From assembly GCA_038396585.1 (NCBI GenBank), contig CP121691.1, forward strand, positions 930,001 to 994,000: a stretch of 64,000 bases of DNA. The letters run 5' to 3'. The translations under genes and the position numbers were made by a program. How positions within the stretch are numbered: position 1 is the stretch's first letter; each line of letters begins with the position of its first letter. The notes under the pieces are model-generated. The model did not search any database. It was not told where the DNA came from and saw only the letters and a list, made by a program, of their open reading frames with translations. Positions 21,814 through 45,689 of this stretch are shown here, piece after piece. This stretch comes from Vallitaleaceae bacterium 9-2 (GTDB lineage: Bacteria; Bacillota; Clostridia; Lachnospirales; Vallitaleaceae).

Positions 21814-22632
21814 ATGACTATTACAGATAGAGATTATAACATATTAACAGATGAGGAGAAGGTAGAATGGAATCTCCAAGAACATCTTGCTTCGCTTGAT
21901 GATAACGGAAAACCTTTTCTCATAAAAGGAATGAAACGAACGAATTACACTCTTATTCCAAAGGCAGCAAGGCACTACCTTTCATTATTTCCGAATAATA
22001 TGATGGATATTTGTGATTTAAAAAGAGATGATTACTTGCATGATATGGTTAATGGTTTCGAAAAATTTCTAGATGACCCTTCAACTGGCGAGCTGCAAAT
22101 ACTGAATTATATCAATCATGGTATGAGACATCATTTGATTGCATCAATCCTTAAAGGTGGATATGACTTTGGTCATCATGAAGCCTTTGTATTTCCTGAA
22201 TTCAAGCTAGGTAATTCATGGACTGTTGATTATCTAATTGTAGGAAGGAATTCTGGTGGATATGAGTTCATATTTGTAGAACTAGAATCGAATAAAGGGC
22301 AAGTGACTAGAAAAGATGGTGAATTCTCAACAGTAATAAATAAGGGTATTCATCAAATAAATGATTGGAAGATTTGGTTAGAGGGAAGGTATTCACAGCT
22401 CAATGAAACATTTGAGAAATATCTTCATGTAGATAAATCACTTCCTGATGAATTTAGAACATATGATAGTTCAAGAATTCATTATGTCTGTGTTGCAGGT
22501 AGAAGGACAGATTATAATAAAGCGACATATACAAGAAGAAGAAAATTCATGCAGGAGCAGCGAATCAATGTAATGCATTATGACAATTTAATTGACTTAG
22601 CCAGAAACACAATTGGCAAAGCCACATATTAG
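21814..22632 (+). CDS. DUF4263 (Shedu-like) PD-(D/E)XK-type protein
   Basis: 272 residues. The central part has the pattern of a PD-(D/E)XK nuclease core as in DUF4263/SduA: FPEFKLG, then WTVDYLIVGR (acidic residue on a strand), then EFIFVELESNKG (Glu-x-Glu in place of the usual Glu-x-Lys), then a helix with HQINDWKIWLEG. Shedu proteins are single-gene phage-defence nucleases. This one is shorter than most and stands 20 bp upstream of a Gabija-like pair in the same operon, so it may be an added effector. The family assignment rests on motif pattern only. Confidence 0.6.
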   Translation: MTITDRDYNILTDEEKVEWNLQEHLASLDDNGKPFLIKGMKRTNYTLIPKAARHYLSLFPNNMMDICDLKRDDYLHDMVNGFEKFLDDPSTGELQILNYINHGMRHHLIASILKGGYDFGHHEAFVFPEFKLGNSWTVDYLIVGRNSGGYEFIFVELESNKGQVTRKDGEFSTVINKGIHQINDWKIWLEGRYSQLNETFEKYLHVDKSLPDEFRTYDSSRIHYVCVAGRRTDYNKATYTRRRKFMQEQRINVMHYDNLIDLARNTIGKATY

Positions 22633-22652
22633 AGATAAGGTGGGTGGAGTAA

Positions 22653-24362
22653 ATGTATATCAGAAAGATTAAAGAAATTGAAAATTATCGGAACTTATCA
22701 GGTGTTGACTTTTCATTTACTAAGAAGATAAATTTCATTGTTGGTGAAAACAATATTGGTAAAACTAACGTTATGGAATTAATGAATAAAGTAGTCAAGA
22801 TAGGAAAGTTTGAAGAAAGTGATTTTACTGATGTTAGAGAGCCTATAAAAATCATCTTTAGTATCAAGTATAGTGAAAGTGAGCTTGGATTTTTTGAGAG
22901 CACTTTTGATGTGAATGATGAATATTTAATCACTATTACGGCTACCCAAGAGAGTGTAGACAGTAGGATTGAATATGTTCATACTGGTTCGGAGTCTTAT
23001 ATTAATCCCAAACATATTAAAATGCTAAATTTCATATACTATTCATCCCTTAGAACACCAAATAAAGAGCTGAGTTTTAATAATAATATCGGAACTGGTA
23101 AAGTTCTTAAATACATTATGAAAAAGAGTCTTGAAGATAAAGACATTCAACAAATGGATTTGCTAAAGCAAGATGAAATTAGAGAAGTTTTGACTGAAGT
23201 TAATGGACGCTTAGACAAATTGAATGGTTTATCATCTGAGAAAATTGAAGCATTCCTAAGCGAAGACAATGAGAATATAATTAACAGGATTTTGGAGATT
23301 GGTGATATAAATAAACGTAACCTCTCGAAACTTGGTGATGGACTGCAATACTCATTCAATATATTTCTCAACATACTTGATTTACTGGTGCATTTGAAGA
23401 CAACAAAGAAAGAAAATGTTTTTGAAAGCCTACTAATCAAGGAAGCTGACGGCAAAAAATATTTGCCTATTATTCTTGGATTGGATGAACCAGAGATTCA
23501 TCAACACCCATATAGACAACGTGCCTTAATTAAAAGTATTAGGGACATCATAAGTAATAAGAATGAAGGTTTTACACAAATTATAAATGACCTATTTGAT
23601 ATTGATGGATTTATTGGGCAGGTATTTGTAACAACGCATTCACCAAGTATTTTACTAGATGATTATAGGCAAATAATACGTTTGTATAAAGAGGGTGACA
23701 ATGTAAGTTCTTCAAGTGGAAATGCTATACAGTTTACTCCAGATGAAAAGAAGTTGTTACGCAGTAGTTTCATGTATTTCAAGGAAGCTATGTTTGCAAA
23801 AGCTGTTATTCTTGTCGAAGGTGATACAGAATATGGAGCGGTTCCAGTATTTGCTCAACGGCTTGATTTTGATATGGATGAAAAAAGTGTTGGAGTATTC
23901 AAACTTGATGGTGCAGATGGAGTTAAAAAGTATCTTAAATTATTCGATGGATACAGTATTGAAGCCAAAGCGATTTTAGATAAAGATAAGGAAGCTGATT
24001 ATACTGGACATGACCAAATATCATTTACTACTGGTATAGATTTTGAAGAAGATATATTTGATAACTTTACATTTGATGGATATTTGGAGTATCTAGTTAG
24101 TCTTAATAAACATACATGCCTTATTAGATTACTAAGAGCAAAGATTGATGATTTTGATAGAAGAGAATTTCTTGAAGACCCATGCTCATATGAAGTCGAA
24201 AATGAAGTGAAGATAGAGATAATGGCAGAGATTAGAGAGAAAGAACTCGAAGAGTTGGGAAAACAGAAAAATGCTGTTCATGGAGCTCTATTAGCAGAAC
24301 TAGTCGATGAAATACCGCAAGCGTTTGAGGATATTATTACTGATATTATGTGGGAGATATAA
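22653..24362 (+). CDS. gajA: OLD-family ATPase-TOPRIM endonuclease, GajA-like
   Basis: 569 residues, close to typical GajA. The N-terminal ABC-type ATPase has Walker A GENNIGKT (Lys37), signature-like KLGDGLQYSF and Walker B LGLDEPEIHQHP (about 272-283). The His-containing switch lies in VTTHSPSILL. The C-terminal TOPRIM domain has LVEGDTEY (about residue 387, catalytic Glu) and LDKDKEADY (about 441). In Gabija, GajA forms a DNA-nicking tetramer held inactive by nucleotides until phage infection. The next gene, 2 bp away, is the helicase partner. Confidence 0.85.
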   Translation: MYIRKIKEIENYRNLSGVDFSFTKKINFIVGENNIGKTNVMELMNKVVKIGKFEESDFTDVREPIKIIFSIKYSESELGFFESTFDVNDEYLITITATQESVDSRIEYVHTGSESYINPKHIKMLNFIYYSSLRTPNKELSFNNNIGTGKVLKYIMKKSLEDKDIQQMDLLKQDEIREVLTEVNGRLDKLNGLSSEKIEAFLSEDNENIINRILEIGDINKRNLSKLGDGLQYSFNIFLNILDLLVHLKTTKKENVFESLLIKEADGKKYLPIILGLDEPEIHQHPYRQRALIKSIRDIISNKNEGFTQIINDLFDIDGFIGQVFVTTHSPSILLDDYRQIIRLYKEGDNVSSSSGNAIQFTPDEKKLLRSSFMYFKEAMFAKAVILVEGDTEYGAVPVFAQRLDFDMDEKSVGVFKLDGADGVKKYLKLFDGYSIEAKAILDKDKEADYTGHDQISFTTGIDFEEDIFDNFTFDGYLEYLVSLNKHTCLIRLLRAKIDDFDRREFLEDPCSYEVENEVKIEIMAEIREKELEELGKQKNAVHGALLAELVDEIPQAFEDIITDIMWEI

Positions 24363-24364
24363 AT

Positions 24365-26134
24365 ATGACTAGAGAAGAAATAGAGAATAAGATTAGGGAG
24401 ATTCATGGCACAGATGAGGAACAATTAGAGTTTATACTATCAGATAATAAGAGAATTCAAGTAACTGCTAGTGCAGGTTGTGGCAAGACAAAGACTATGA
24501 TAAGTAAAATTGCATATGAGTTAATTACCACACCAAACCTAAACCATAAGAAGATATTGGCTCTTACTTTTAGTGTAAATGCATCCACAAAGATAAAAGA
24601 GGATACTGCATCAATATTACCTCAAATTATTGGTGATGAAGATTTTGATGTTGAGAATAAATTAGATGTATCGAATTATCATGGTTTTTCAACCAAATTA
24701 TTATTTAAGCATGGATATATATTCCATGAGAACTTGAAAAGTGTTGAAGGATTCACTATTGTTCCAGAAACGGCTGCTGTTGTAAATAGACACCTTATTG
24801 CTCAAGATGTAAGGATGTTAACAGAGTTTACTGAAGCACTTAAAGCTGTTGATAAAGCAAAAGTGGATGAGTTAATTGAAGATTATAGGAAACTTCTTAT
24901 TGAAAAGCTGATTCCAAATAATGTGATTACATATAATGGTCTATTAATATTGGGGAGTGAGTTACTCTCAAACCCTCACATCAAGAACTTCTATACAAAG
25001 TATTATCCAATGGTTATTGTAGATGAATTTCAGGACACCAATTATCTTGCCTATAAAATAATATGTAATCTGATTGGTGATAACAAGATGATACTAATGG
25101 GTGATGATATCCAAAAGATATATGGTTTTCTTGGGGCTATTCCTAATTTATTTGAGGATATGAAGACTGAGTTTGATATGATGCCAATGGAGTTCAAAAC
25201 CAATTATAGATTTCAGGATAATCCGAAGATGTTACAGCTTGATAATTATATAAGAGAAATATTCAAGCAATATGATGATATGGATTCATTTGAGGAGACT
25301 GCTGAAATAAACTTTGGCTTTTACACATCTGAAAGAGGTGAAGTTGATAAGATATACTCAGGGTTAATTGAAAAGACCCAAGGAGATAATACTGCTGCTG
25401 TGCTAGTGAATATCAACAGAAGTTCCACATGGATTATAGATAAACTTGAAGAGAATAATATCACTTATTTTAATGGTTTATTTAAAGATACTGATGTTGA
25501 TTATCAAAAGTTTCATAAAATTGCTTTTGATAAGTTTGTGAGAGAAAGTGGAATAGGGCGGTCTGTTTCTTCAAGAGTAATGAATTCAGTGATAGCAGAG
25601 ATGGAAGCAGAACAGATAGCAATAGTTACAGATATTATTGTATTCAATTCATTAATGCGATTATTGAAGGCTTTATTTGAAAAGACTAAATCATCATCTT
25701 TAAGTAGAGCTGAGAAGTATGACAAAATATCTTTTACGCTTAGTAATGGAAGTTTGAAAAGGTTGATGAATGAAATCGATGAAAAAATTGTTATTACAAC
25801 TATTCACGGCTCAAAAGGTCTTGAATGGGACTATATTTTCATTCCTCAAATTACAAGTGGTGCATTTCCGATATATATAAGTGGAGGGTCGCTTTGTAAG
25901 ACATGTAAAGATGATAGTAGTGGAACACAGTATCAAAAGAGATGTGAATTTACATTCCCAAGTTATTTAAAATCTGGCTTTGAAGAACAATTAAGTCTTT
26001 TCTATGTTGCTATAACAAGAGCAAGAAAAGATGTTTATATGTTTGCTAATACAGAAAATAATCCTTGGGGGTATCCTAAAAAAAGAAGCTGCTTTACGGC
26101 ATTACCAAACTTAACTAGAAACAAAGACTTTTAA
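24365..26134 (+). CDS. gajB: UvrD/REP superfamily helicase, GajB-like
   Basis: 589 residues from ATG 24365 (GGGAG 8 bp upstream). SF1 helicase motifs: Walker A SAGCGKTK (about 36-43), II VDEFQDTN (about 218), III GDDIQKIYGF, IV TNYRF, V TTIHGSKGLEWDY (about 478) and VI YVAITRARKDVY (about 546). A Cys cluster CKTCKD with a further Cys 13 residues on, between motifs V and VI, may bind a metal. It is longer than the canonical GajB of about 500 residues. Being coupled to the GajA-like gene, it is a defence helicase rather than housekeeping PcrA. Confidence 0.82.
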   Translation: MTREEIENKIREIHGTDEEQLEFILSDNKRIQVTASAGCGKTKTMISKIAYELITTPNLNHKKILALTFSVNASTKIKEDTASILPQIIGDEDFDVENKLDVSNYHGFSTKLLFKHGYIFHENLKSVEGFTIVPETAAVVNRHLIAQDVRMLTEFTEALKAVDKAKVDELIEDYRKLLIEKLIPNNVITYNGLLILGSELLSNPHIKNFYTKYYPMVIVDEFQDTNYLAYKIICNLIGDNKMILMGDDIQKIYGFLGAIPNLFEDMKTEFDMMPMEFKTNYRFQDNPKMLQLDNYIREIFKQYDDMDSFEETAEINFGFYTSERGEVDKIYSGLIEKTQGDNTAAVLVNINRSSTWIIDKLEENNITYFNGLFKDTDVDYQKFHKIAFDKFVRESGIGRSVSSRVMNSVIAEMEAEQIAIVTDIIVFNSLMRLLKALFEKTKSSSLSRAEKYDKISFTLSNGSLKRLMNEIDEKIVITTIHGSKGLEWDYIFIPQITSGAFPIYISGGSLCKTCKDDSSGTQYQKRCEFTFPSYLKSGFEEQLSLFYVAITRARKDVYMFANTENNPWGYPKKRSCFTALPNLTRNKDF

Positions 26135-26145
26135 GGGGGTTAGAT

Positions 26146-26391
26146 ATGGCACATAAAAGCGATAGTAGTGTTCAGTTAAAATCAGAGAAAGTGATTCTTC
26201 ATAAACTTGAAGAACATTTAGGATTGGCTACAGACTCTTTAATAACAGAAAGAATAAGGCTCAATAGTAAATCTACTGTAGAGTTAGATGGCTTTCATGA
26301 GGAACAAGGTATAATGGTTGAAGTGTTTTCTCGAATCGGTAAACCGAAACCTGCACATTATGAAAAGTGTTCTGATACAATAAAGTTGTAA
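26146..26391 (+). pseudogene. 5' part of a nuclease-like gene cut off by an IS element
   Basis: 81 codons following the GajB-like gene by 11 bp, with its own RBS (AAGGGGG). The segment STVELDGFHEEQGIMVEVFS, followed by a basic GKPKPAH, resembles the start of a PD-(D/E)XK core (Asp, then Glu-Val). The frame ends at a TAA created within the left end of the IS element at about 26387, and the rest of the gene is not present on the other side. It was probably a fourth gene of the defence operon and is now truncated. Confidence 0.6.
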
Positions 26392-26439
26392 CACCAGGGG
26401 GTGCGGACATAATCTTAGACCTTAAGAAAGGATTTTGCC

Positions 26440-27096
26440 ATGTATTCATTAGAACAACGCCGTATCGCAGTAGAACTTTATATCAAGTATGATTTACAAG
26501 TCAATCCAGTAGTCAAGGAGTTAGGATATCCCTCAAGACGTATATTATATAAATGGTATAAAGAATATCTTGAGCGTGGTGGTCATCCCAAAACCCATAC
26601 AAGAGAGTCACCATATTCTTATGAGAAGAGAAAGAGTGCTGTTGAGTACTACATTAATCATGGTAAAAGTCTAGCAAATACAATTCGAAAGCTTGGCTAT
26701 CCTACACAAGTTACATTAAGGTCGTGGATTACTGAGATGTACCCCGATACTGAAAAACGTTGTGATACCCAAAAATATAAGGTAAGATATTCGTATGCCA
26801 AGAAGAAAAAAGTGCTTATAGACCATTGTAAAAGATCTACATCCAGCGAGATTATTGCAAAAACTCATGGTGTTCCCCGAACTGCACTTTATCGCTGGGA
26901 AAAAGAGCTACTAAGTATGGAGAGTATCGAATCTATGAGAAATCAACGTAAAAATAACGCTTTGATAAAAAATAATCCTTCGGACAAAAAATCCGAACTA
27001 GAAAAAGAAGTCGATAAGCTAAAACAGGAAATCTTTGACCTAAAACTCGAATGTGATATATTGAAAAAGACTTCAGACGTCTTAAAAAAGCAATAA
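26440..27096 (+). CDS. IS3-family transposase OrfA
   Basis: 218 residues. It carries repeated helix-turn-helix units (RRIAVELYIKY, KRKSAVEYYINHG and KKKVLIDHCKR, each followed by a basic recognition-type helix) and a C-terminal leucine-zipper coiled coil (about residues 185-215, heptads in VDKLKQEIFDLKLECDILKK). These match IS150-type OrfA, which binds the IS ends and oligomerises. The frame passes through AAAAAAG at 27084-27090 just before its stop. A -1 slip there would join it to OrfB without an intervening stop. Confidence 0.85.
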   Translation: MYSLEQRRIAVELYIKYDLQVNPVVKELGYPSRRILYKWYKEYLERGGHPKTHTRESPYSYEKRKSAVEYYINHGKSLANTIRKLGYPTQVTLRSWITEMYPDTEKRCDTQKYKVRYSYAKKKKVLIDHCKRSTSSEIIAKTHGVPRTALYRWEKELLSMESIESMRNQRKNNALIKNNPSDKKSELEKEVDKLKQEIFDLKLECDILKKTSDVLKKQ

Positions 27097-27122
27097 GCAT
27101 CAATCCTAAATCCTTATCAAAC

Positions 27123-27908
27123 ATGGAAAAGGCCAAGGTCATTGGTGCGCTCAAACACAAATACAAGACTGCAGTCTTGCTAGATTATTTTCAAATGGCC
27201 CGTAGTAGTTACTTTTACAATGTACAAATTCTAAAACGTTCTGAAAAATATGTTGATTTGCGGATAGCGATAAAGCGAATATTTGAGGAGTCATCACAAA
27301 CGTATGGATATAGAAGGATTTATGGATCCTTGGTGAAGGAAGGAATACGAGTATCAGAAAAAGTTATTCGTAGAATCATGCTTGAAGAAGGTATTTCAGT
27401 TCGCCAGGTCAAAAAGAAGAAGTATAGCTCATATAAAGGTGAAATTAGCCCTGCTGTAGAGAATGTGATTAATAGGAAGTTCACTGCTGCTAACCCAAAT
27501 GAGAAATGGTTAACTGATATAACCGAATTTCATTTACCTGCCGGTAAAGTGTATCTTTCCCCAATCATTGATTGTTTTGACGGTATGGTTGTTTCTTGGT
27601 CAGTTAGTACATCTCCTAATGCAAATCTGGTAAATAGTATGTTGGACGAAGCACTTACTACGTTGGAACCAAATGAACATCCAATTATTCACACGGATCG
27701 TGGCTGTCACTATCGATGGCCAGGTTGGATAGAGAGAATGAATCAATCAGGATTAACACGTTCTATGTCTGCCAAGGGATGTTCGCCTGATAATGCAGCG
27801 TGTGAAGGATTCTTTGGCAGGCTTAAGAATGAGATGTATTATGGAAAGTCGTGGCTTCAGACATCAAAAAATGAATTTATTGATCATATAAACCAGTATA
27901 TCGAATGA
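27123..27908 (+). CDS. IS3-family transposase OrfB (rve integrase domain), prematurely stopped
   Basis: 261 residues as read. HTH_21 segment TYGYRRIYGSLVKEGIRVSE is followed by the DDE catalytic domain: Asp in WLTDITEF, Asp in HTDRGCHYRW, Glu in NAACEGFFGRLKNEMYYG. All three acidic residues are intact. The frame is open back to the AAAAAAG slip site at 27084, so it is normally made as an OrfAB fusion. TGA at 27906-27908 replaces the Trp codon expected after QYIE. Beyond it the same frame continues with YNKKRIKISLG and IEYRRSLGL to TAA 27981-27983, so about 25 conserved C-terminal residues are lost. Confidence 0.85.
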   Translation: MEKAKVIGALKHKYKTAVLLDYFQMARSSYFYNVQILKRSEKYVDLRIAIKRIFEESSQTYGYRRIYGSLVKEGIRVSEKVIRRIMLEEGISVRQVKKKKYSSYKGEISPAVENVINRKFTAANPNEKWLTDITEFHLPAGKVYLSPIIDCFDGMVVSWSVSTSPNANLVNSMLDEALTTLEPNEHPIIHTDRGCHYRWPGWIERMNQSGLTRSMSAKGCSPDNAACEGFFGRLKNEMYYGKSWLQTSKNEFIDHINQYIE

Positions 27909-28033
27909 TATAATAAAAAGCGTATAAAAATATCACTTGGGGCCAAGAGTCCTATAGAGTATCGACGTAGCCTAGGATTGTAATAATCAGTCCAAGAAAA
28001 CATCCGCACCCCCGGTATGACAATTTTGCTTGA

Positions 28034-28381
28034 CTAGAACAAAGTGAGATATGCCTTGAAAGGGGATTCCCGAAAAAAATCAAAGTGGATAATGGCCCGG
28101 AGTTTATTTCTAGATCATTAGATTCTTGGGCTTACTTCAACAAAGTCAAACTCGAATTCTCAAGGCCAGGGACACCAACAGATAATGCAGTCATCGAATC
28201 CTTTAACGGGAGCCTTAGAGACGAATGTCTAAATGTAAGTTGGTTCATATCATTAGATGACGCAAAAGGAAAAATCGAGGCATGGAGATTGGACTACAAT
28301 GAATTCAGACCTCACTCTGGACTAACACACATGACACCATCCGAATTTGCCCAAAATCATAACGAAAAATCGATTTCATAA
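28034..28381 (+). pseudogene. Remnant of a second IS3-family orfB (IS2/IS407-like)
   Basis: The frame starts next to the right end of the previous IS and reads ERGFPKKIKVDNGPEFISRS, RPGTPTDNAVIESFNGSLRD and YNEFRPHSGL. This is the C-terminal third of an rve transposase of a different IS3 subgroup, with only the second Asp and the Glu of the DDE triad. The N-terminal two thirds are missing. Its 3' flank reads AAAAAAGGGTGCTACTCAA, probably the right end of that old element. It is evidence of repeated IS activity and deletion at this spot. Confidence 0.85.
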
Positions 28382-28513
28382 TGAACATTTTAACTTTAAA
28401 TATGGACCAAAAAAAGGGTGCTACTCAATCATAAAGTGACTAACATTTATATTGGATTAGATTTTGGGGAGCAGGTCAGAGTAAATGATATACTTGACTG
28501 ATACATATAAAGT

Positions 28514-28556
28514 AGCTATAACCGCGGTATTTTTTTAACGGTTATAGCTGTTTTTA
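28514..28556 (+). terminator. Rho-independent terminator
   Basis: An 11-bp stem AGCTATAACCG / CGGTTATAGCT with a 14-nt loop, then GTTTTTA. It points rightward and so ends transcription coming through the IS remnant; it also separates the convergent minus-strand gene at 28584. Confidence 0.7.
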
Positions 28557-28583
28557 TGTAAAGCTGTCAAATGAATTGATTAC

Positions 28584-28964
28584 CTACAGAAGTGTAAAGC
28601 TTACATCGGTAGGTGAAGTAAATTTCACCTGTACACTGTTTCCAACTTGAGCGCCACAAGATACATACCACGGAGTGAAAGCTTTGCAAGCGCCGTGGCC
28701 TATACCTTCAAATTGTTTTGCGTATTTACCATCGGCTGTTCCGTTACCTGCTGCTTTGATTCTTATTGATGGTGAACCATTAGTAAAGGATGCCGTGTAT
28801 TCAGAACCACGTCTAATATTATACATTCTTGCATAATCTACAGGAATCTTAACATAAGATTCACCTTCAATTTTTGCTCTGTTTGTTGGGTTTCTTGGTT
28901 CATTTCCCCAATCGATATGAGAGGGTTTAATCGCAACAGTATATATATCTCCTGCTTTTGGCAT
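28584..28964 (-). CDS. Orphan hypothetical protein on the minus strand
   Basis: 126 residues. A good RBS (AAGGAGG) precedes the ATG at 28964 on the minus strand. The composition is strand-rich and compact, with segments VKIPVDYARMYNIRRGSEY and a C-terminal SVQVKFTSPTDVSF that could fit a small beta-barrel DNA-binding or lectin-like fold. I recognise no family. It is the only minus-strand gene between 1 and 39 kb and lies between IS debris and the restriction-modification unit. It is probably cargo of the island. Confidence 0.6.
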   Translation of the reverse strand: MPKAGDIYTVAIKPSHIDWGNEPRNPTNRAKIEGESYVKIPVDYARMYNIRRGSEYTASFTNGSPSIRIKAAGNGTADGKYAKQFEGIGHGACKAFTPWYVSCGAQVGNSVQVKFTSPTDVSFTLL

Positions 28965-29140
28965 AATATTCCTCCTTGCAACTTAGATTAATGTGCTATC
29001 AATTATTTCAACTATTCAGTAGGTTGATGTGAAAATCATTTGACATTACAATACCTAAAAATTTTAACATAATTTGGAACTTGGTACCAGATGTACAAGG
29101 AAAATAAAAGGTAATATAATCGAGCTACTTTTTTATCGTG

Positions 29141-29154
29141 CGAACAATCGTTCG
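29141..29154. promoter_or_regulatory. Inverted repeat CGAAC-N4-GTTCG
   Basis: CGAACAATCGTTCG is a perfect 5-4-5 dyad. It matches the core of the Gram-positive LexA (SOS) box, CGAAC-N4-GTTC. It sits 18 bp upstream of the -35 of the restriction-modification promoter, so it could instead be an operator for the adjacent Xre-type controller. Confidence 0.45.
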
Positions 29155-29172
29155 AATAGCTAAACAAATATA

Positions 29173-29201
29173 TGGACAATATAAAATTTATAGTTTATAC
29201 T
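29173..29201 (+). promoter_or_regulatory. Promoter of the restriction-modification operon
   Basis: TGGACA (29173-29178), exactly 17 bp, TATACT (29196-29201), 33 bp before the regulator ATG. Confidence 0.6.
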
Positions 29202-29234
29202 AGTGTTAGTTTGATAGAGCGGAGGGGATGGAAG

Positions 29235-29444
29235 ATGACAATCTCAGAGCAAATAAAAGTACTATGTGTACGTTGTGATATAAGTGTAGCTGAATTAGCT
29301 AGAAGAGTGGGTAAATCCCCTCAAAATATGAGCTCTAAGCTGAAACGAGGCAGTTTTACAATTGAAGACTTAGATGATATTGCAGAGGCAGTAGGGGTTA
29401 CTTTTGAAAGACACTTTGTACTTAATAATGGCGACAAAGTATAA
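29235..29444 (+). CDS. Xre-type helix-turn-helix regulator of the R-M unit
   Basis: 69 residues from ATG 29235 (GGAGGGGATGGAAG upstream). A single HTH_3 domain is visible: ISVAELARRVGKSPQNMSSKLKRG, followed by FTIEDLDDIAEAVG, spanning nearly the whole protein. Size and position, 17 bp upstream of a C5 methyltransferase and followed by an endonuclease, fit a controller (C) protein that delays endonuclease expression. It has its own promoter and a dyad upstream. Confidence 0.8.
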   Translation: MTISEQIKVLCVRCDISVAELARRVGKSPQNMSSKLKRGSFTIEDLDDIAEAVGVTFERHFVLNNGDKV

Positions 29445-29461
29445 ATATTGGAGGATTTAGA

Positions 29462-30514
29462 ATGCGATTTGAACTAGGAGAACTGTTTTGCGGACCAGGC
29501 GGTATCGCTCATGGTGCTACAACTGCAAGAATTGAAAATGAGGAGTTTCAAATAGTCCATAAGTGGGCGAACGATTATGACCAAGATACGTGCAACACAT
29601 ATGCTTATAATATATGTCCTGAACATCCTGAGTCAGTAATATGTGAGGATGTAAGGAAATTAAGGATAAATGATTTAGAACCAATTGATGGTTTTGCTTT
29701 TGGCTTCCCATGCAATGACTTTAGTTTAGTGGGTGAGCAAAAGGGATTTGATGGTGAATTTGGACCACTTTACACCTATGGTGTTAAAGTACTTAAGAAA
29801 TTTAAGCCTAAGTGGTTCTTAGCTGAAAATGTGGGTGGTATACGAAGTGCTAATGAAGGTGGAGCATTTAAGAAGATATTGAATGACCTAGAGAACGTTG
29901 GATATAAATTATATCCACATCTCTATAAGTTTGAGCAATATGGAATTCCACAAGCTAGACATAGGGTAATAATAATAGGGATTAGAAAAGATTTACCTTA
30001 TGAGTTTAAGGTGCCATCACCTGCACCTTATGCAGATATAGATAACACAAGTAAAACAGCACTAGAGGTACCACCTATTGCGAAAGATGCTCTAAATAAT
30101 GAGAGGACACGACAATCTGCAGTTGTAACTGAAAGACTTAAACATATTAAACCAGGACAAAATGCTTTTAATGCTGATATTCCGGAAAATCTTCAGTTAA
30201 AAGTTAAAGGTGCTAAAATCAGTCAAATTTATAAACGTTTAGACCCTCATAAGCCTGCTTATACAGTTACTGGTAGCGGTGGAGGTGGTACTCATATATA
30301 TCATTATGATGAACCACGAGCATTAACAAATAGGGAAAGAGCAAGGTTGCAGACTTTTCCAGACCATTATAACTTTCAGGGTGGGAAAGAGAGTGTAAGA
30401 AAACAGATTGGTATGGCTGTACCAGCAGCTGGTGCTAAGATTATTTTTGAAGCTGTTCTTAGAACATTCGCAGGTATTGAATATGAAAGTGTAGAGTGCA
30501 ATGTAGAAATATAG
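29462..30514 (+). CDS. DNA (cytosine-5) methyltransferase
   Basis: 350 residues with the C5-methyltransferase motifs in order: I ELFCGPGGIAHG (5-17, SAM binding), IV GFPCNDFS (about 81-87, catalytic Cys in Pro-Cys-Asn instead of the usual Pro-Cys-Gln), VI AENVGG (about 121), VIII QARHRV (about 163), and X QIGMAVPAAGAKI near the end. The target-recognition region lies between about 190 and 290. It protects host DNA against the endonuclease encoded 14 bp downstream. The recognition sequence cannot be read. Confidence 0.92.
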   Translation: MRFELGELFCGPGGIAHGATTARIENEEFQIVHKWANDYDQDTCNTYAYNICPEHPESVICEDVRKLRINDLEPIDGFAFGFPCNDFSLVGEQKGFDGEFGPLYTYGVKVLKKFKPKWFLAENVGGIRSANEGGAFKKILNDLENVGYKLYPHLYKFEQYGIPQARHRVIIIGIRKDLPYEFKVPSPAPYADIDNTSKTALEVPPIAKDALNNERTRQSAVVTERLKHIKPGQNAFNADIPENLQLKVKGAKISQIYKRLDPHKPAYTVTGSGGGGTHIYHYDEPRALTNRERARLQTFPDHYNFQGGKESVRKQIGMAVPAAGAKIIFEAVLRTFAGIEYESVECNVEI

Positions 30515-30528
30515 ATAGGGGGTGTACT

Positions 30529-32079
30529 ATGATTAATTATTGGTGGGTAACTAGACCTAAAAGAAAATTAAACTCAGTACCTGAGGTACTTACAACATTT
30601 GCAGAATTATCACTTGATGCAGAGTGGCAAGGGCAAAGGGGAACACATTTATCCTTAGAAGATGCATTAGAACAAGCAGGATTGAAAAGAATTGGAGAAA
30701 GGCGAGACCAAACTGGGGGCGGTGCTAGAACTTATAAAGCATGGATAATGAGTCTAGGCTTGATATTTGCACAAGAATCCACGGGTCAAATAAAGCTTAC
30801 CTTAGCAGGTGAAGCCATAATGTCAGGTGCATCACCAGTACAAGTATTAAAACATCAAGTTCTTAAATATCAGTTCCCCTCGTCATTTTCAATGGGTCGA
30901 GGGGTTCTGGTCTCTTCACGATTTAAAATCAGACCTTTTAGGTTTTTACTAAGACTTTTAAATGATGAGAGAATCAGTTGTTATATAACTGAGGAAGAGA
31001 TTGCGAAAATTGTTATTACGGAAGCTGAAAAAGAAACCGATTCGTGCTTTAATCATGTAGTGAATAGAATAATTGAGTTTCGTAATACTGGTGATTCTTG
31101 TTTAAAGGATGATTTCTTTACGAAGTATGGACCAGGACGTGGAAAAGTTAATCCTGCTTATCCGTATCGTCATCTGACTGATACAGCTAATACCTTAGTA
31201 AATTGGCTTGAATATACCCAGTTAGCTAAAAGAAATGATAATCGACAGCTAGTTATATTAGATGACAAGAAAGCAGAAGTAGAAGAAATATTAGCAGAAA
31301 CTCCACCTTTCATCAATAGACCTGAACAGCATGAATATTTTCAAAGAAAATTCGGGGTTGACCCAGAACATACTAAGGATACACGTAATCTTACAGCTAC
31401 CAGAACGGTAACTCATAAAATAATTGCAGAGCAAAAGATTAAGCAAGCTTTCATCTCAGAATCGTTAAAGCAGCCTATTGCTAGGATTGATTCACAAGTT
31501 ATAGATAAGATTATAGATATGACTGGCATTGATGCAAATCTTGTTGAGGAAACGCTTTTAAAATACTATCCTCATGGAGCCATTGGGTCATTTATGACTG
31601 AGTACTTTGAAATGGCATTTAGAGGTAGAGATAATGCCATAGAGTTTGAGACTGCTACTGTAGAACTGTTTCAGTCAGCGTTTGGATTTAGAGCAGAGCA
31701 TGTAGGTCCAATTGGACTAACTCCTGATGTGCTTGTCCTATCTGATCAGGATAGATATGTTGGCATTATAGACAATAAAGCATACAGTAAGTATTCAATT
31801 ACGAATGACCATAGAAATCGTATGATATATAATTATATTGAATCATACCGTCAAAGCGAGTATCCTCTTGAGTTCTTTAGTTATATATCAGGCGGATTCA
31901 GTAATAATATTAATAATCAAATTCAAAGTATAGCTGCAGAAACGGGTATTAATGGTTCTGCAATGTCAGTATCAAATATGATAAAATTAGTTGAGAATTA
32001 TGAACGTAATAGATATGACCACAGTAAAATAAAGCAAGTATTTTCGGTCAATAGACAAGTATTGTTAGCAGATATATAA
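30529..32079 (+). CDS. AlwI-family (FokI-like) type II restriction endonuclease
   Basis: 516 residues from ATG 30529 (AGGGGGTG 5 bp upstream; the upstream in-frame start lies inside the methyltransferase gene). The opening MINYWWVTRPKRKLNS and overall length match AlwI/MlyI/PleI-type enzymes. The C-terminal cleavage domain has TPDVLVL (about 399) and IIDNKAYSKYS (about 412-422), then HRNRMIYNYIESY. This corresponds to the FokI active site (Pro-Asp ... Asp-x-Lys). Such enzymes usually cut outside an asymmetric site and need two methyltransferase activities. Only one methyltransferase is visible here. Confidence 0.82.
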   Translation: MINYWWVTRPKRKLNSVPEVLTTFAELSLDAEWQGQRGTHLSLEDALEQAGLKRIGERRDQTGGGARTYKAWIMSLGLIFAQESTGQIKLTLAGEAIMSGASPVQVLKHQVLKYQFPSSFSMGRGVLVSSRFKIRPFRFLLRLLNDERISCYITEEEIAKIVITEAEKETDSCFNHVVNRIIEFRNTGDSCLKDDFFTKYGPGRGKVNPAYPYRHLTDTANTLVNWLEYTQLAKRNDNRQLVILDDKKAEVEEILAETPPFINRPEQHEYFQRKFGVDPEHTKDTRNLTATRTVTHKIIAEQKIKQAFISESLKQPIARIDSQVIDKIIDMTGIDANLVEETLLKYYPHGAIGSFMTEYFEMAFRGRDNAIEFETATVELFQSAFGFRAEHVGPIGLTPDVLVLSDQDRYVGIIDNKAYSKYSITNDHRNRMIYNYIESYRQSEYPLEFFSYISGGFSNNINNQIQSIAAETGINGSAMSVSNMIKLVENYERNRYDHSKIKQVFSVNRQVLLADI

Positions 32080-40272: not shown

Positions 40273-40311
40273 TTAAAAATTCCTCCTTACTTAATCAATT
40301 GATGGTTTGTG

Positions 40312-40830
40312 TTAAGGACGAGATGGATAATAGCCATCATAGTTTATGATAAAATTAAATGTAAGATAAGGCGGCATCGTTGCAAGTGGTTGAGAGCCAC
40401 CTTCATTTTTTAGACTGTCTTGATCCAATGAAGTTATATGAGAAGCATCATAGTTAGTGTACAGCATTGTCGGATAGCGCGATTGAACAGTTGACATTAC
40501 GTTATTCGTTGGAGTTGACTCAGCCATATTGCTTGTAGAAGTTCGAAGGGGATGATTGTGAGCGGGTAAATGGTTGGGGGATAGTTGAACGTGCGTCCAA
40601 CCTCCAATCATTCCTTGATAGAAGCCATCGCCTCGATGGTTTGGAATCCGGTCTCTTAAATCCGGCAGTTTGAAGGTGGTATACCCATCGCCACCGTAAC
40701 GATTTCCGATAACAGCATAAAGCAGCTGGTACTCAGAAATCTGAAGTGTCGAACCATCACAGAGGAACCATCCTTCTGGCGCGTAAGTTGCTGCAGTAAG
40801 GGTCACTTGTCCTGCAAATGGATAATTCAT
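40312..40830 (-). CDS. Phage tail collar domain protein, paralogue
   Basis: 172 residues on the minus strand, the same length and layout as its neighbour at 39754: PFAGQVTLTAATYAPEGWFL, YAVIGNRYGGDG, FKLPDLRDRIPNHRG, LPAHNHPL and the terminal YLTFNFIINYDGYYPSR. It is the first gene of a two-gene minus-strand operon produced by tandem duplication. RBS GAGGAGGAAAT lies just upstream. The function is unknown; these proteins may form trimeric fibre-tip structures. Confidence 0.88.
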   Translation of the reverse strand: MNYPFAGQVTLTAATYAPEGWFLCDGSTLQISEYQLLYAVIGNRYGGDGYTTFKLPDLRDRIPNHRGDGFYQGMIGGWTHVQLSPNHLPAHNHPLRTSTSNMAESTPTNNVMSTVQSRYPTMLYTNYDASHITSLDQDSLKNEGGSQPLATMPPYLTFNFIINYDGYYPSRP

Positions 40831-40946
40831 TAATATTTCCTCCTCTCGTTAAAACCTTGACTAACTTGTATAGAATTATTATATCATAAAATTAAATGTA
40901 AAACGCAAAGAGAGTATTTTGTATGGAAAATATAGCTTATAATGGC

Positions 40947-41096
40947 TTGCATTATATGGAGCAAAATAGTAGAATGGTACTTGAATAAAGTGGTAATGTG
41001 CAATGGGTTGAGTATAATGGGAAAACTTATAAGGGAAGATTCTCTATTTTTTTATAATAATAAGCGCATAACCATAACTGTGGTATGTGTTTTTTT
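40947..41096 (+). promoter_or_regulatory. Recurrent promoter-leader-terminator element, copy 3
   Basis: Promoter TTGCAT (40947-40952), 17 bp, TAGAAT (40970-40975). The leader contains TAATGTGCAATGGGTTGAG, ATGGGAAAA and TATAAGGGAAGATTC. The hairpin runs from GCGCATAACCA to TGGTATGTGT with a T-run (41064-41096). It lies 57 nt before the helicase start. The 323-bp gap 40831-41153 otherwise holds only AT-rich sequence that must include the leftward promoter of the tail-collar pair. Confidence 0.55.
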
Positions 41097-41153
41097 GTTG
41101 TCTGGGAGAGATAAGAGCTGAATGAATAATTAATAAAGGGGAGCTATAGTATT

Positions 41154-43601
41154 ATGATATTAAACATTGATCAACGTAAAATTGTCGATAGTGATGTAAC
41201 AGGAAATATGCTTATTCGTGGTGTGGCGGGAAGTGGAAAAACCACCGTTGCAGTTCATAGAATACCGATTCTATTGGATTATCATACAAAAGAAAAGGAT
41301 AAGGTTCTCTTGATAACATATAACCGTTCCTTAATCCACTATGTCAATTATTTATATGAAAAAATGGATCGACAAACGACGCTGCTTGATTTGTCCGATA
41401 AGGAAGAACGATTAGAGATTAAGACCATTGACTCAATCATTCGAAGTCTGTTTAATCAATTAAAGATAAAACATAAAAATAATCCCATTCCCTCAATGCA
41501 TGAACAATTTAATACAATAAACTATGTTTTGGATAAACTTCAAGATAAGTATAAAGAGATTCCGTGGTTTAACACGCAAAATTCGAGATTCATACTTAAT
41601 GAAATCGATTGGATTAAAGCCTGTGACTACGATAGTATAAAAGCTTATCAAGAAGCTGATAGAACAGGCCGAGCCGCTTACATGAAAGAAATTAAAGACA
41701 CACAAGGCGTTCAACGAATTAAGAAAAATAGTATTCAAAGAGAAGCTATTTATGAATGCTATCAGTTTTATAATAACATCATGTATAAAAAGGGCTTTTT
41801 TGATTTTGGAGATATGGCAAAAATGGTAAAGGATCATTTTGAAGAAATTAATACGGATAAGTACGTGCACATACTTATAGATGAAGCACAAGACCTGTCA
41901 AAATTACAACTTGATATAATCAAGAGATTATATGATGAACAAGACTATAGCTCGGCAACCTTTATCACAGATACTTCTCAGAGTATTTATGAAAAATCGT
42001 GGTTGAGTTATCATGCTTTTACTACTGTAGGCTTTAATATGGCAGGTCGCTCGCGCATCCTAAGCAAAAACTATCGAACCACGAAACAAGTGGCAATGGC
42101 GGCATATAGTTTGACAGAAAAAGATGATGCAATTACTTCAAATGAGTTATACGTGAAGCCTCTGGTGGTTGAACGCGAAGGAAGTTTTCCGGTCTATCGA
42201 AATTTTGAAAATGATGAAGAAGAACTTAACTATATCTCCAGCGTGATTAAGAAGAAAAGCTCTAAGTATGACTTGCGGGATATGGTTATCATAGCACGTA
42301 ATAAAAAGCAGTTAGAGATTGCTAAAGATTATTTGATTCGTCAAGGTATTGACTCCAAAATCTATTCAGATAAAGTATCCTTTGATGAAGAGGTAGTAAA
42401 ATTATTTACTATGCATTCAATTAAAGGTTTAGAATTTAAGTTGGTTTTTATTATTGGCTTGAATGAAGGAATTATTCCCTATTCTAGTCCGTGTGAAGCA
42501 GATGACAATAATAACAGCGAAATACAAGACAGAAAATTATTGTATGTTGGGATGACCAGAGCTGAAGAAAAACTCTATATGACCTCGAGTGGAAAAGCGT
42601 CAAAGTTTATAAAAGATATTAATCCCGAATACCTTATTACCAATGATGAAGAACCCTTTGAAAATATTACAAAATTACCTGAAAATCGATATTTGTTTAC
42701 AGAAAAGATTATTGAAATACATAGCAAAGAGGAAACTGTAAGACAAGGTATTCTTCAAAATCTCATAGATATACTAGGATATCCATTAAGTTGCATCGAT
42801 ATTGAAGTTCCCGTGCAACAATATTCTCAAAAAGGTTATGCAGATATTGTCCTCTACAAATCTCAATCAAAAGAGAAACCCTTAGTTGTCATTGAATGTA
42901 AGGCTCAAGATGTTGAAATCGAAGCATTAAAGGACCAATTATTTGACTATATGAAAGCATTGCCTAGTGTAAGATTTGGCATGATGACAAATGGAGTAAA
43001 GCATTATTTTTATGAGAAAAGTGGAATGAAAATGTTGGACCGTGCTATGGTGCCATCTTATGATAACTTAGTCAACACCATAGATAAAGTCTTTGTCTAT
43101 AAGAATATGGTCAATAATAGAGAGTTTAAATATATCGTTAATGGATATGATAATAAAAACATATCAATAAAGTATATGGATGAAGAGGGTGTGTTGCCTA
43201 TTGGAGACTATCGGGATATAGGAATAATGGGAAAAGTATCCGCCGGTTTGCTCAAGACGATGGATCAATCTATAGATAGTATATCAAGGCATATCCCATT
43301 GCCATCAGAGTGGTTTTCAAATAGTTACGATTATCTCATGCTTAAAGTTGATGGGGATAGTATGATTCAGGCAGGAATAGAGCCTAGGGACCATGTTGTC
43401 GTCAGAAGGCAAGCGGATGTTGAAAACTATGATATTGCCGTTGCTGTTGTAGATGATGAAGCAACGATGAAAAAAATAGTTAAGATGGGCGACAGTATAA
43501 TGTTAATGCCTGAAAACAGCAAATATGAGCCGATAATGAAAAAAGCAGATGAAATCTTCATAGCAGGTAAGATCGTTGGAGTTTTGAAGAGCTTGGGATA
43601 G
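41154..43601 (+). CDS. UvrD-like helicase fused to HsdR_N-like nuclease and S24 (LexA-like) domain
   Basis: 815 residues. Residues 1 to about 490 are an SF1 helicase: Walker A GVAGSGKTT (Lys29), II LIDEAQDLS (about 241), IV SKNYRTTKQ (about 303), V TMHSIKGLEFKLV (about 418), VI YVGMTRAEEKLY (about 463). Residues of about 530-640 carry a type I restriction R_N-like nuclease core with GYADIVLYKS (Asp, about 560) and VVIECKAQD (Glu-x-Lys, about 578). Residues of about 715-815 are an S24/LexA-type domain with the Ser-Lys dyad in GDSMIQAG (about 733) and TMKKIVKMGD (about 771). The dyad would allow self-cleavage. It may be a DNA-damage or phage-triggered nuclease. A two-component pair follows 15 bp downstream. 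Confidence 0.82.
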   Translation: MILNIDQRKIVDSDVTGNMLIRGVAGSGKTTVAVHRIPILLDYHTKEKDKVLLITYNRSLIHYVNYLYEKMDRQTTLLDLSDKEERLEIKTIDSIIRSLFNQLKIKHKNNPIPSMHEQFNTINYVLDKLQDKYKEIPWFNTQNSRFILNEIDWIKACDYDSIKAYQEADRTGRAAYMKEIKDTQGVQRIKKNSIQREAIYECYQFYNNIMYKKGFFDFGDMAKMVKDHFEEINTDKYVHILIDEAQDLSKLQLDIIKRLYDEQDYSSATFITDTSQSIYEKSWLSYHAFTTVGFNMAGRSRILSKNYRTTKQVAMAAYSLTEKDDAITSNELYVKPLVVEREGSFPVYRNFENDEEELNYISSVIKKKSSKYDLRDMVIIARNKKQLEIAKDYLIRQGIDSKIYSDKVSFDEEVVKLFTMHSIKGLEFKLVFIIGLNEGIIPYSSPCEADDNNNSEIQDRKLLYVGMTRAEEKLYMTSSGKASKFIKDINPEYLITNDEEPFENITKLPENRYLFTEKIIEIHSKEETVRQGILQNLIDILGYPLSCIDIEVPVQQYSQKGYADIVLYKSQSKEKPLVVIECKAQDVEIEALKDQLFDYMKALPSVRFGMMTNGVKHYFYEKSGMKMLDRAMVPSYDNLVNTIDKVFVYKNMVNNREFKYIVNGYDNKNISIKYMDEEGVLPIGDYRDIGIMGKVSAGLLKTMDQSIDSISRHIPLPSEWFSNSYDYLMLKVDGDSMIQAGIEPRDHVVVRRQADVENYDIAVAVVDDEATMKKIVKMGDSIMLMPENSKYEPIMKKADEIFIAGKIVGVLKSLG

Positions 43602-43616
43602 AAAAAGAGGCAGAGT

Positions 43617-44333
43617 ATGAAAAAAATCTTATTATTGGAAGATAACATTTCCTGTAGAAAACATTTGCTTAAGATAGCAGCAAGCATAAACCCTACGTTG
43701 GATTTTTTTGAAACCGGTAGTGCAAATGAAGCATATAGCTATTCAATATCAAATGATGTCAGTGTGTTTTTGCTGGATATCCAGGTAGAGGATTATTCAG
43801 GAATAGAACTAGCCAAACGCTTAAGAAGTATAAAAAAATATCAGTTTACACCGATTATCTTTATTACGGCTATGCCAACTAGACAGCTGGAGGCATTTCG
43901 CAAAATCCATTGCTATGATTACATAATAAAGCCTTTTACAGAGGAAGAAGCCGGTAAAGTCCTTAAAAAAATATTGATTGATTACATAGATCGACCTAAT
44001 GAAACCAAAAACCTAGCATTAAAGTTCAAGAATTTTACTCAAATGATTCCTATGAATGATATTTTGTATGTAGAGTATGTGAATAGAAGAATCATCATCA
44101 TAACCAAAGAGGAAAAAATAAAATATATGCATATGTCGATGAAAAAATTCAAGCAATTATTAGATGAAGATTTTTTCATGCAAGTACACCAATCCGTTAT
44201 TATTAATTCAAATTATGTTGAAAAAATAGAGTTCGACGCAAAAAGTATAAAACTATATAGTGTAGAAGAAGAAATTCCAATAGGACGAAGCTATCTAAAA
44301 GAAGTGAGAGGTAGATTTGATGACTTATATTGA
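43617..44333 (+). CDS. LytTR-family response regulator
   Basis: 238 residues. The receiver has an acidic pocket LLLEDN, phosphoacceptor Asp in VFLLDIQVEDYSG (about residue 53), and IIKPF with the conserved Lys-Pro. The LytTR DNA-binding domain begins at about 135: MNDILYVEYVNRRIIIITKE, FKQLLDEDFFMQVHQSVIIN and PIGRSYLKEV. It is of the AgrA/ComE type, which binds direct repeats. It follows the helicase fusion by 15 bp and its end overlaps the kinase gene. No agrB or agrD gene is nearby. Confidence 0.9.
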   Translation: MKKILLLEDNISCRKHLLKIAASINPTLDFFETGSANEAYSYSISNDVSVFLLDIQVEDYSGIELAKRLRSIKKYQFTPIIFITAMPTRQLEAFRKIHCYDYIIKPFTEEEAGKVLKKILIDYIDRPNETKNLALKFKNFTQMIPMNDILYVEYVNRRIIIITKEEKIKYMHMSMKKFKQLLDEDFFMQVHQSVIINSNYVEKIEFDAKSIKLYSVEEEIPIGRSYLKEVRGRFDDLY

Positions 44334-45591
44334 GACGTTAATCTTATCTTTTTTTGACATGCTTATGTTGACGTACATCATTGTCATTTTAAAAGCTTCA
44401 TTGAAGAAAATAGATGTCATTAAAGGTTGTTGTGGAGTACTTGTCGGGACGGCATTAATAGGCACGGTGATTTACTTTGTCAGTAATCAGGTGGTTTCTT
44501 TTACGGTTAATATTATAATTGCGTTTGTTTTAATTCAAATTATTATGAGAAGTGATTTAAAGCGTATTACGATTACTTATGTATATAGCCTGACGATTTT
44601 ATGTACAGTTCAACTTCTGACAACCATTGCATATCAGTTGATAAAAGGAAGTTGGGATTACACATTTGTCAGTAGTTTGATAACACAGCTAATAACGGCA
44701 GTTATGACTATAGTTATATTAAAAATCTTGCCGATTAATCAATTTTATCATAGCCTTATTAAAGAAAATAAATGGATGCAGATTGTTGTCACTAACGTTT
44801 TTTTCGTATATTATGTGTTAGTTATATTATGGAATACAGATTTATATGGGCTGCTTGATAGTATTTTAGGCATACTTATCCTTGTCGTTATTATATTACT
44901 TATCAACACGTTAATGATTACTCATGGGATATCTAATCAGATATTATCAGAAAAGATAAAGATGTATGATATGTATTTTCCTGTAATAGAAGATATCATT
45001 GAAGAAGTGCGAACAAAGCAACATGATTATCATAATCATATTCAAACTTTATATGCTTTAAAGTCCATGGAGCACTTACCTAATGCCTTTGAGGAATACT
45101 TACAAACAATAAAAGCTGATGATATTTGGATGAAGCTTATTCGATTGGATAATAAAGTATTGATGGCGTTTTTATATAGTAAATTTTTACATGCTCAAAA
45201 AGATAAAATTAATGTGGAGTTTAAAATTCAGAATTACTTTTTTAACTCTGAACTTCAAGATTATGAACTTATAGAAATTTTTGGGATTCTTATGGACAAT
45301 TCAATTGAGGCAACTCTTGAAGTCGAAGCAAGAGGATGTGAAATACTTATAGGATATGAAGAGGGGTTAAATATTATTCAAACACGCAATCAAGCGACAG
45401 CTATGCTAAACGATAGATTGATAAAAACGTTGAAAAGCGAAAGGAAGCGTCATATTAAAGATAAAACAGGGTATGGGCTTCAAAAATTAACCACTATTGT
45501 CAACCGCTATAAGGGACAGATTAAGATAAAATATAACAAAAAAGACCAAGAAATAATTTGTCGAGTAGAGATACCTGATAGTAGTAATTAA
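44320..45591 (+). CDS. AgrC-like GHKL sensor histidine kinase
   Basis: 423 residues from ATG 44320 (GAGAGGT about 8 bp upstream, inside the regulator gene). Six or seven hydrophobic segments fill residues 1 to about 205. The phosphoacceptor box is KQHDYHNHIQTLYAL (about residue 235). A GHKL ATPase follows, with N-box IFGILMDNSIEATLE and G-box KTGYGLQKLTTIV. It is like AgrC/ComD, which sense peptides, but no peptide precursor gene is visible. Co-transcription with the helicase fusion is likely. Confidence 0.88.
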   Translation: MTYIETLILSFFDMLMLTYIIVILKASLKKIDVIKGCCGVLVGTALIGTVIYFVSNQVVSFTVNIIIAFVLIQIIMRSDLKRITITYVYSLTILCTVQLLTTIAYQLIKGSWDYTFVSSLITQLITAVMTIVILKILPINQFYHSLIKENKWMQIVVTNVFFVYYVLVILWNTDLYGLLDSILGILILVVIILLINTLMITHGISNQILSEKIKMYDMYFPVIEDIIEEVRTKQHDYHNHIQTLYALKSMEHLPNAFEEYLQTIKADDIWMKLIRLDNKVLMAFLYSKFLHAQKDKINVEFKIQNYFFNSELQDYELIEIFGILMDNSIEATLEVEARGCEILIGYEEGLNIIQTRNQATAMLNDRLIKTLKSERKRHIKDKTGYGLQKLTTIVNRYKGQIKIKYNKKDQEIICRVEIPDSSN

Positions 45592-45606
45592 AAACTCGTT
45601 AAACTA

Positions 45607-45663
45607 TTGACAAGCTCAAAATCTGTGTTAAAATTATACTAGATGAACGTTCAGCTAGTATAA
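45607..45663 (+). promoter_or_regulatory. Promoter and 30-bp operator palindrome of the adh gene
   Basis: TTGACA (45607-45612), 16 bp, TAAAAT (45629-45634), followed directly by a 30-bp palindrome at 45634-45663 centred on TGAACGTTCA, with outer arms TTATACTAG / CTAGTATAA and only one mismatched pair. The dyad covers the transcription start and so suits a repressor. The TetR protein encoded at 46796 is the obvious candidate. Confidence 0.65.
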
Positions 45664-45689
45664 AAAAGCGCATAAAAGGAGAATGATTG

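Follow-up and report, generated by a model that had tools for sequence, protein, structure and literature searches.

A UvrD-type helicase-nuclease fused to a LexA-type S24 domain in Vallitaleaceae bacterium 9-2, and its patchily distributed family

Domain organization and closest described systems

S24-type proteins that combine an Ala-Gly site with a Ser-Lys dyad cleave themselves when filaments of RecA on single-stranded DNA bind, and to our knowledge all self-cleaving S24 proteins are transcription repressors or polymerase subunits. Here we analyze a gene in which such a domain is joined to a helicase and a nuclease, located on a stretch of 64,000 nucleotides from Vallitaleaceae bacterium 9-2 (GenBank assembly GCA_038396585.1, contig CP121691.1, positions 930,001 to 994,000; the whole stretch is referred to as the window, and coordinates are window positions unless a locus is named). 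The gene (41154..43601, forward strand) encodes a protein of 815 amino acids, hereafter the fusion protein, and is supported by its open reading frame (ORF), by Pfam matches and by full-length homologues without internal stops.

The closest described systems each share a part of this organization. LexA and UmuD contain the same S24 domain with Ala-Gly site, serine and lysine, but in the fusion protein a helicase-nuclease takes the place of the DNA-binding helix-turn-helix of LexA, and the protein scores 102.3 bits against the LexA equivalog cut-off of 110.95. AddA and RecB unite in a single chain a UvrD-type motor and, C-terminal to it, a PD-(D/E)XK nuclease; the fusion protein, however, stays far under the NCBIfam cut-offs (45.2/707.65 bits for AddA, 40.5/696.05 bits for RecB), is shorter, has a nuclease of the HsdR_N type and an S24 tail, and has no AddB or RecC encoded on either side. 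The equivalog score is likewise unmet for the PcrA/UvrD/Rep helicases (124/911 bits for PcrA). HsdR of type I restriction systems similarly pairs a motor with a nuclease domain of the HsdR_N type, but in the fusion protein a UvrD motor of superfamily 1 precedes the nuclease, and the adjacent genes are not HsdM or HsdS.

Among the best 25 of 35 matches in PADLOC 2.0.0 no model covers the whole fusion; these 25 are helicase models, with best stretches that end by residue 488. The best match was GajB of Gabija (E 8.8e-37), which resembles the fusion protein in having a single UvrD-type superfamily 1 helicase. This match covers the helicase part alone, whereas the fusion protein has a nuclease and an S24 domain of its own, and no GajA lies beside the gene, the adjoining genes encoding collar-domain proteins (39754-40830) and a two-component system (43617-45591); a GajA-GajB pair is present separately in the window (22653-26134). 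The second match was the NERD+UvrD candidate C3a187 (8.2e-34), which by its model name also unites a nuclease-like part and a UvrD helicase in one protein, but the best match is to helicase residues 231-488 and the S24 domain remains uncovered. The first-pass annotation of this sequence knew of no described system with this architecture, and we likewise recognized none from titles and abstract openings among the literature matches listed, with most subscription papers outside coverage. Passages in a paper on Druantia III and Zorya II (PMC13192584) concern an inhibitor of LexA self-cleavage, not an S24 fusion.

Four Pfam domains were identified, all on the forward strand and all well above the curated gathering score (E-values are for the whole protein), which bears out the three-part fusion proposed at first pass. 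The UvrD-helicase N-terminal domain (PF00580, E 4.6e-23; residues 3-280, 41160..41993) contains the Walker A motif G26-S-G-K29 and motif II, D243-E244-x-Q246-D247, which are invariant in 27 of 27 aligned rows. The UvrD_C domain (PF13361, E 1.5e-22) has its best stretch at residues 411-479 (42384..42590) and is also supported by alignment conservation, with motifs around residues 419-427 and 464-469. The HSDR_N_2 nuclease domain (PF13588, E 2.9e-22; residues 525-622, 42726..43019) contains a D...E-x-K core of the PD-(D/E)XK type; its aspartate, placed earlier at about 560, is D564 (codon 42843-42845), and its Glu-x-Lys, placed earlier at about 578, corresponds to E581 (42894-42896) and K583 (42900-42902). 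A family profile of the nuclease region gave weak matches to structures in the PDB, namely RM.BsaXI (5.8e-5), a Cas4-family nuclease (9.9e-4) and HsdR (0.013). The C-terminal Peptidase_S24 domain (PF00717, E 1.3e-25; residues 691-808, 43224..43577) is of the LexA type, its closest solved structure being LexA 3k2z (E 3.5e-20). Its Ser-Lys dyad, correctly described before as intact, consists of Ser736 (43359..43361) and Lys773 (43470..43472), and the predicted self-cleavage bond, A697-G698 (43242..43247), lies upstream of the dyad at the LexA position.

Conservation, joint domain loss and a short form

The fusion protein belongs to a wider, patchily distributed family that is undescribed as far as searched. 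Relatives outside the species share about 30-66% identity. Members are present in 4/22 genomes of the window's taxonomic family. Counting matches with an E of 1e-60 or better, and including the window genome each time, they are present in 12/392 genomes of the order sample and 18/398 of the phylum sample, the last number including three copies that are broken, split or ended by a contig. Both other searched genomes of the window's genus lack the gene. A Fusobacteriota member, annotated merely as 'S24 family peptidase', is located on an Ilyobacter replicon, the one of three PLSDB records with a coverage of at least 80%. On a Fusobacterium animalis plasmid (L228:3986-6358) we observed a related UvrD helicase with a C-terminus that has no Pfam nuclease or S24 match at E 0.001. 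A viral origin of the family was considered and rejected: besides the three PLSDB records, IMG/VR yielded only weak helicase matches among those listed (best E 1e-8), and the two INPHARED matches are to the helicase part, neither covering 80%.

In the alignment of 27 full-length rows, residues G26-K29, D243, E244, D564, E581, K583, S736 and K773 are invariant, while 26 of the rows retain A697 and G698. Nine further full-length copies all keep the catalytic residues of nuclease and S24 domain, and eight of them keep the Ala-Gly bond. Combined, the nuclease D/E-x-K and the S24 dyad are found in 36/36 full-length rows and Ala-Gly in 34/36, with near-duplicates among the rows (the pairs L006/window, L039/L040 and L056/L057). 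Excluded before this count were L060 (contig end), L062 and L182 (broken), L186, L188, L199 and L212 (fragments), L177 (the L047 locus), L179 (the window itself) and L061. At the last of these loci (L061:8334-10797, reverse strand) an overlapping second ORF encodes the S24 part, perhaps through a frameshift or an error in the assembly, or because the gene is naturally split.

Loss of the C-terminal domains was analyzed in genus g488 (the genus of genome G1013), of which 68 genomes were searched. Long forms of the gene are full-length in 8 genomes and lack the S24 domain in 6, and broken remnants occur at two places (G1145 and G1196). All six S24-less long forms are without a nuclease active site: L181, L196 and L197 have a nuclease domain with the changes E581K and K583N, and in L183, L184 and L198 the domain is gone. 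No piece of an S24 domain was found within flanks of approximately 1.5 kb around these six genes, where the only hit was a 22-residue chance match at L183 (E 0.51). The nuclease active site is intact in 36/36 full-length forms vs 0/6 S24-less long forms (Fisher 1.9e-7, kinship ignored).

The motor shows a different picture: 56 helicase residues do not vary across the 27 rows, and of these 56 are present in L183, 55 in L184, 54 in L196 and L198, and 53 in L181 and L197, with Walker A and motif II retained in all six. In the nine extra full-length copies 54-56 of these residues are unchanged, eight having no or one change and one having two. In a helicase tree the S24-less forms fall into two separate clades, one of them nested among S24-bearing copies, and the S24 domain was therefore lost at least twice independently. 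As the S24-less forms lose the nuclease yet keep the motor nearly intact, nuclease and S24 domain seem interdependent, and the simplest reading of these sequences is that an active nuclease would be tolerated, or useful, solely alongside an S24 domain. The alternative is a general decay from the C-terminus; in the clade of L181, L196, L197 and L198, changes are seen at N306 (N306S) and S422 (S422C/F/L), together with E427Q in two copies.

Genus g488 also contains a short form, which genome G1013 carries alongside a full-length copy. In 34/68 genomes the helicase N-terminal stretch and the S24 stretch are found in one ORF of approximately 475-552 amino acids from which the middle parts are absent, and in 46/68 an S24 stretch lies in an ORF of less than 560 amino acids, in which the N-terminal part has often diverged too far to pass the threshold (counts made by eye from match rows, E 1e-40). 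Pfam identified UvrD-helicase in two of three short forms and S24 in all three. In 23 short forms (L202-L206, L208, L209, L211, L213 and L214-L227) the P-loop GK[T/S] is kept in 23/23, 22/23 have no motif II glutamate, and AAG, serine and lysine are kept in 23/23; the mean pairwise identity is 44% for the helicase half vs 64% for the S24 part. The retention of AAG, serine and lysine, together with the greater drift of the helicase half, shows that the protease itself is under selection. At 14 short-form loci there is no conserved neighbor (the most-shared cluster occurs at 5/14) and no AAC-N4-GTT site in the 200 bp upstream, and one short-form query had no match in INPHARED at 1e-20.

Possible mode of action and defense genes at family loci

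We tentatively favor, at somewhat under an even chance, the reading that the fusion protein is a stand-alone helicase-nuclease against foreign DNA under a RecA-responsive, self-cleaving tail of the LexA type. The UvrD-type motor would load on DNA such as intermediates of phage replication or recombination and unwind it, and cutting would be the task of the PD-(D/E)XK nuclease. The C-terminal LexA-type domain would be a built-in control that restrains the uncleaved protein. RecA filaments on single-stranded DNA (phage DNA or broken DNA) would stimulate self-cleavage at A697-G698, and the cut would leave two pieces, the helicase-nuclease (residues 1-697) and the S24 dimer domain (698-815). We infer that cleavage occurs, with RecA as its trigger, that foreign DNA is the target and that the cut activates the enzyme. 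The release of an active helicase-nuclease, which the first-pass annotation suggested, is possible; the direction of the switch leans modestly towards on, and a reading in which the cut inactivates the enzyme is nearly as good as the favored release. Among S24-type proteins, IrvR is reported to be an exception that does not involve RecA (PMC7101444).

Cleavage in the opposite sense would amount to restriction alleviation, in which the intact dimer is the active defense enzyme and RecA-stimulated cleavage turns it off during the SOS response, sparing recombination intermediates of the host. The fusion protein has the same topology as LexA, with the effector N-terminal and the S24 dimer domain C-terminal, and LexA and phage repressors are likewise inactivated by cleavage. 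The loss of S24 with nuclease decay is equally expected if nuclease activity needs the S24 domain, and no finding separates alleviation from activation, but alleviation offers no obvious account of the short form. We consider alleviation unlikely, while ranking it first among the rivals.

A neighborhood of defense genes was found at part of the family loci. At 26 loci, 140 neighbor ORFs match 246 PADLOC families at 1e-10, a total that is inflated by generic models (GajB, DpdF), compared to 25 for 140 control ORFs, taken from 162 ORFs near random points (24 control loci) in 15 of the same genomes. In addition, 40 neighbors were scanned singly, one of them (L052:2868) an overlapping downstream ORF outside the 140, and matches with an E of 1e-50 or better that were not judged generic were counted. 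This gave defense neighbors at 9/26 loci (L041, L042, L044, L046, L048, L050, L052, L053 and L057) vs 0/24 control loci (Fisher 0.0012, criteria set post hoc), where the best E was 6.2e-46; with near-complete model coverage alone the count is 5/26 (Fisher 0.031). Excluded as generic were matches to DpdF at L060 (2.3e-188; HRDC domains suggest RecQ), a dGTPase at L040 (1.5e-80), UvrD models at L055 (best 1.7e-49) and mad3 at L037 (9.7e-50; mad3 also occurs in the control), and adding L060 and L040 brings the count to 11/26.

Among the neighbors scanned singly, a UG10 reverse transcriptase lies at a distance of 31 bp (PADLOC 1.1e-263) and an Orf5 at 63 bp (4.6e-174), the latter labeled GmrSD-type from its PADLOC name and the Pfam tally taken together. 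Others are PDC-S06 (4.5e-267) and a retron-type reverse transcriptase with a type IV restriction endonuclease (5.4e-279); JetD and McrBC, with two members each in the neighbor tally, were not assigned to loci. Clustering of the neighbor ORFs revealed no constant neighbor gene across the family loci. Clusters present in at least three loci comprise ABC-transporter-like ORFs (12, by eye), helicases like type IV restriction endonucleases (6, with a 150-amino-acid piece at L038), methyltransferase-like ORFs of about 200 amino acids (5 loci, by eye), a divergent gene (4 loci, genus g308) and four 3-locus clusters. At L038, L041 and L057 (e.g., L041:2765-5871) such a methyltransferase-like ORF lies near a type IV endonuclease-like helicase, and the two are perhaps a defense pair of their own.

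The family is probably defensive, with a built-in LexA-type switch, and undescribed as far as searched. A housekeeping or auxiliary role in DNA repair, in which a small AddA-like helicase-nuclease under SOS tuning would act on stalled forks or breaks, would suit the UvrD/PcrA/AddA-type motor with its nuclease, the weak NCBIfam matches to AddA and RecB, and the location of some homologues among metabolic genes. It fits poorly with the patchy occurrence (12/392 and 18/398 genomes), the clustering with restriction and reverse transcriptase defense genes, the lack of a LexA box in the searches described below and the other UvrD-type helicase matches elsewhere in the window genome, and is less likely again than alleviation.

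Several observations weigh against a RecA-switched enzyme directed at foreign DNA. No counted defense neighbor was found at 17/26 homologue loci among the 40 neighbors scanned singly, and some members, for instance that of Ilyobacter, are located among housekeeping genes. The drift at two to three otherwise invariant helicase positions in one S24-less clade may reflect a general decay, and the joint loss of S24 domain and nuclease fits S24 as a restraint or as a required dimerizer alike. With no LexA box found, expression is not obviously SOS-induced, and a response of the protein to damage, if any, would probably be post-translational. The AlphaFold model, made from a 2-row alignment only, has a mean predicted local distance difference test score (pLDDT) of 30. 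Two full-length copies, L035 (GD) and L191 (AD), are without the Ala-Gly bond, with the dyad kept in both.

These two copies would be in line with an S24 domain that serves as a non-cutting scaffold for dimerization or DNA-end binding. Such a scaffold would not need the Ala-Gly bond (34/36), the serine and lysine (36/36) of the full-length forms or the AAG, serine and lysine of the short forms (23/23), and we regard it as improbable.

Possible, though short of probable, is a wider reading in which the family is a new kind of antiphage effector. With a LexA-type RecA-sensing protease fused to a helicase-nuclease, SOS signaling would gate the destruction of DNA directly, by proteolysis instead of transcription, and the short form, common in one genus, would be a second, hitherto unrecognized RecA-sensing regulator. 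If so, a DNA-cutting motor with an S24 switch would couple the sensing of RecA filaments directly to the effector, which would explain how a non-specific helicase-nuclease stays safe in the cell.

Regions flanking the gene

The lexA gene of the same genome has three CGAAC-N4-GTTTG boxes. A genome-wide pattern scan found no CGAACNNNYGTTYG site near 41154, and there is no AAC-N4-GTT site in 40831-41153. Upstream of 25 other listed homologues no canonical GAAC-N4-GTTC box was present, and in 6 of these 25 a weak AAC-N4-GTT match lies upstream of, or just inside, the gene. Membership of the LexA regulon was rejected, as no LexA box was found at the fusion gene. A recurrent leader element had been described before the gene without being spelled out, so that the element tested here may differ from it. 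Against 0.28 copies expected, the window has 4 copies of the decamer AAGCGCATAA, one of them inside a collar-protein gene, but genome-wide its 15 occurrences barely exceed the 13 of the reversed control, and a 24-mer from the leader matched only itself in the window with up to 3 mismatches allowed. We rejected the motif as a chance recurrence. A consensus scan of 40800-45800 found no terminator-like site, and Rfam had no match in the window.

Downstream, on the forward strand, lie a LytTR response regulator (43617-44333; Response_reg and LytTR domains) and an AgrC-like GHKL kinase (44317-45591; GHKL, AgrC-like match). The spacing reported at first pass is accurate, the regulator ORF starting 15 bp downstream of the helicase gene and the kinase ORF overlapping it by 17 bp, but the operon with a two-component system that was proposed on this basis did not hold up. 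A blastp search (E 1e-3) with regulator and kinase gave no match among the ORFs around 28 other homologue loci (flanks of up to approximately 9 kb, less where the contig is small, and without the downstream side at L060); the pair is found beside the helicase gene only in the window and in L006, the second assembly of the same species. Homologues without the two-component system had been named at first pass as evidence that would refute the link, and all loci searched outside the species are of this kind. In genome G184 of a sister species the pair is present (74% and 64% amino acid identity) and the helicase gene is absent, the DNA similarity beginning at window position 43605, directly past the helicase stop codon. 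That this pair controls an operon with the fusion gene as its effector, as the 15-bp same-strand spacing in both assemblies might suggest, is highly improbable, and what remains is read-through in one species. We rejected the system as a functional partner and judge the pair to be incidental neighbors that are not part of the system. In the sister species (L176:7968-11488) the pair is preceded by an ABC-ATPase-type gene, and this gene may be the context to which it actually belongs.

The window further contains a defense island (21814..32079, forward strand), 9 kb upstream of the fusion gene, which is context and not part of the system. PADLOC identified SduA of Shedu (21814-22632; E 6.8e-102), GajA (22653-24362; 1.9e-153), GajB (24350-26134; 1.2e-165), a type II methyltransferase (29462-30514; 1.6e-115) and a type II restriction endonuclease (30496-32079; 2.1e-36). 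Between them lie ORFs labeled transposase-like (26440-28381), a label read from the ORF sequences alone with no family search behind it, and the GC content in the island falls to about 0.32 at 22-26 kb. A small ORF (29172-29444), helix-turn-helix-like by eye, precedes the type II restriction-modification genes, and 17 bp before it a perfect, LexA-box-like palindrome, CGAACAATCGTTCG, is located at 29141-29154; this may be a site of SOS control or the operator of a controller protein. At 33843-39704 lies an ORF of 1953 amino acids with long direct repeats at a spacing of approximately 303 nucleotides and a start that is SLH-like by eye. Directly beside the fusion gene, the reverse strand (39754-40830) encodes two phage tail collar domain proteins (PF07484) in tandem, each 172 amino acids long.

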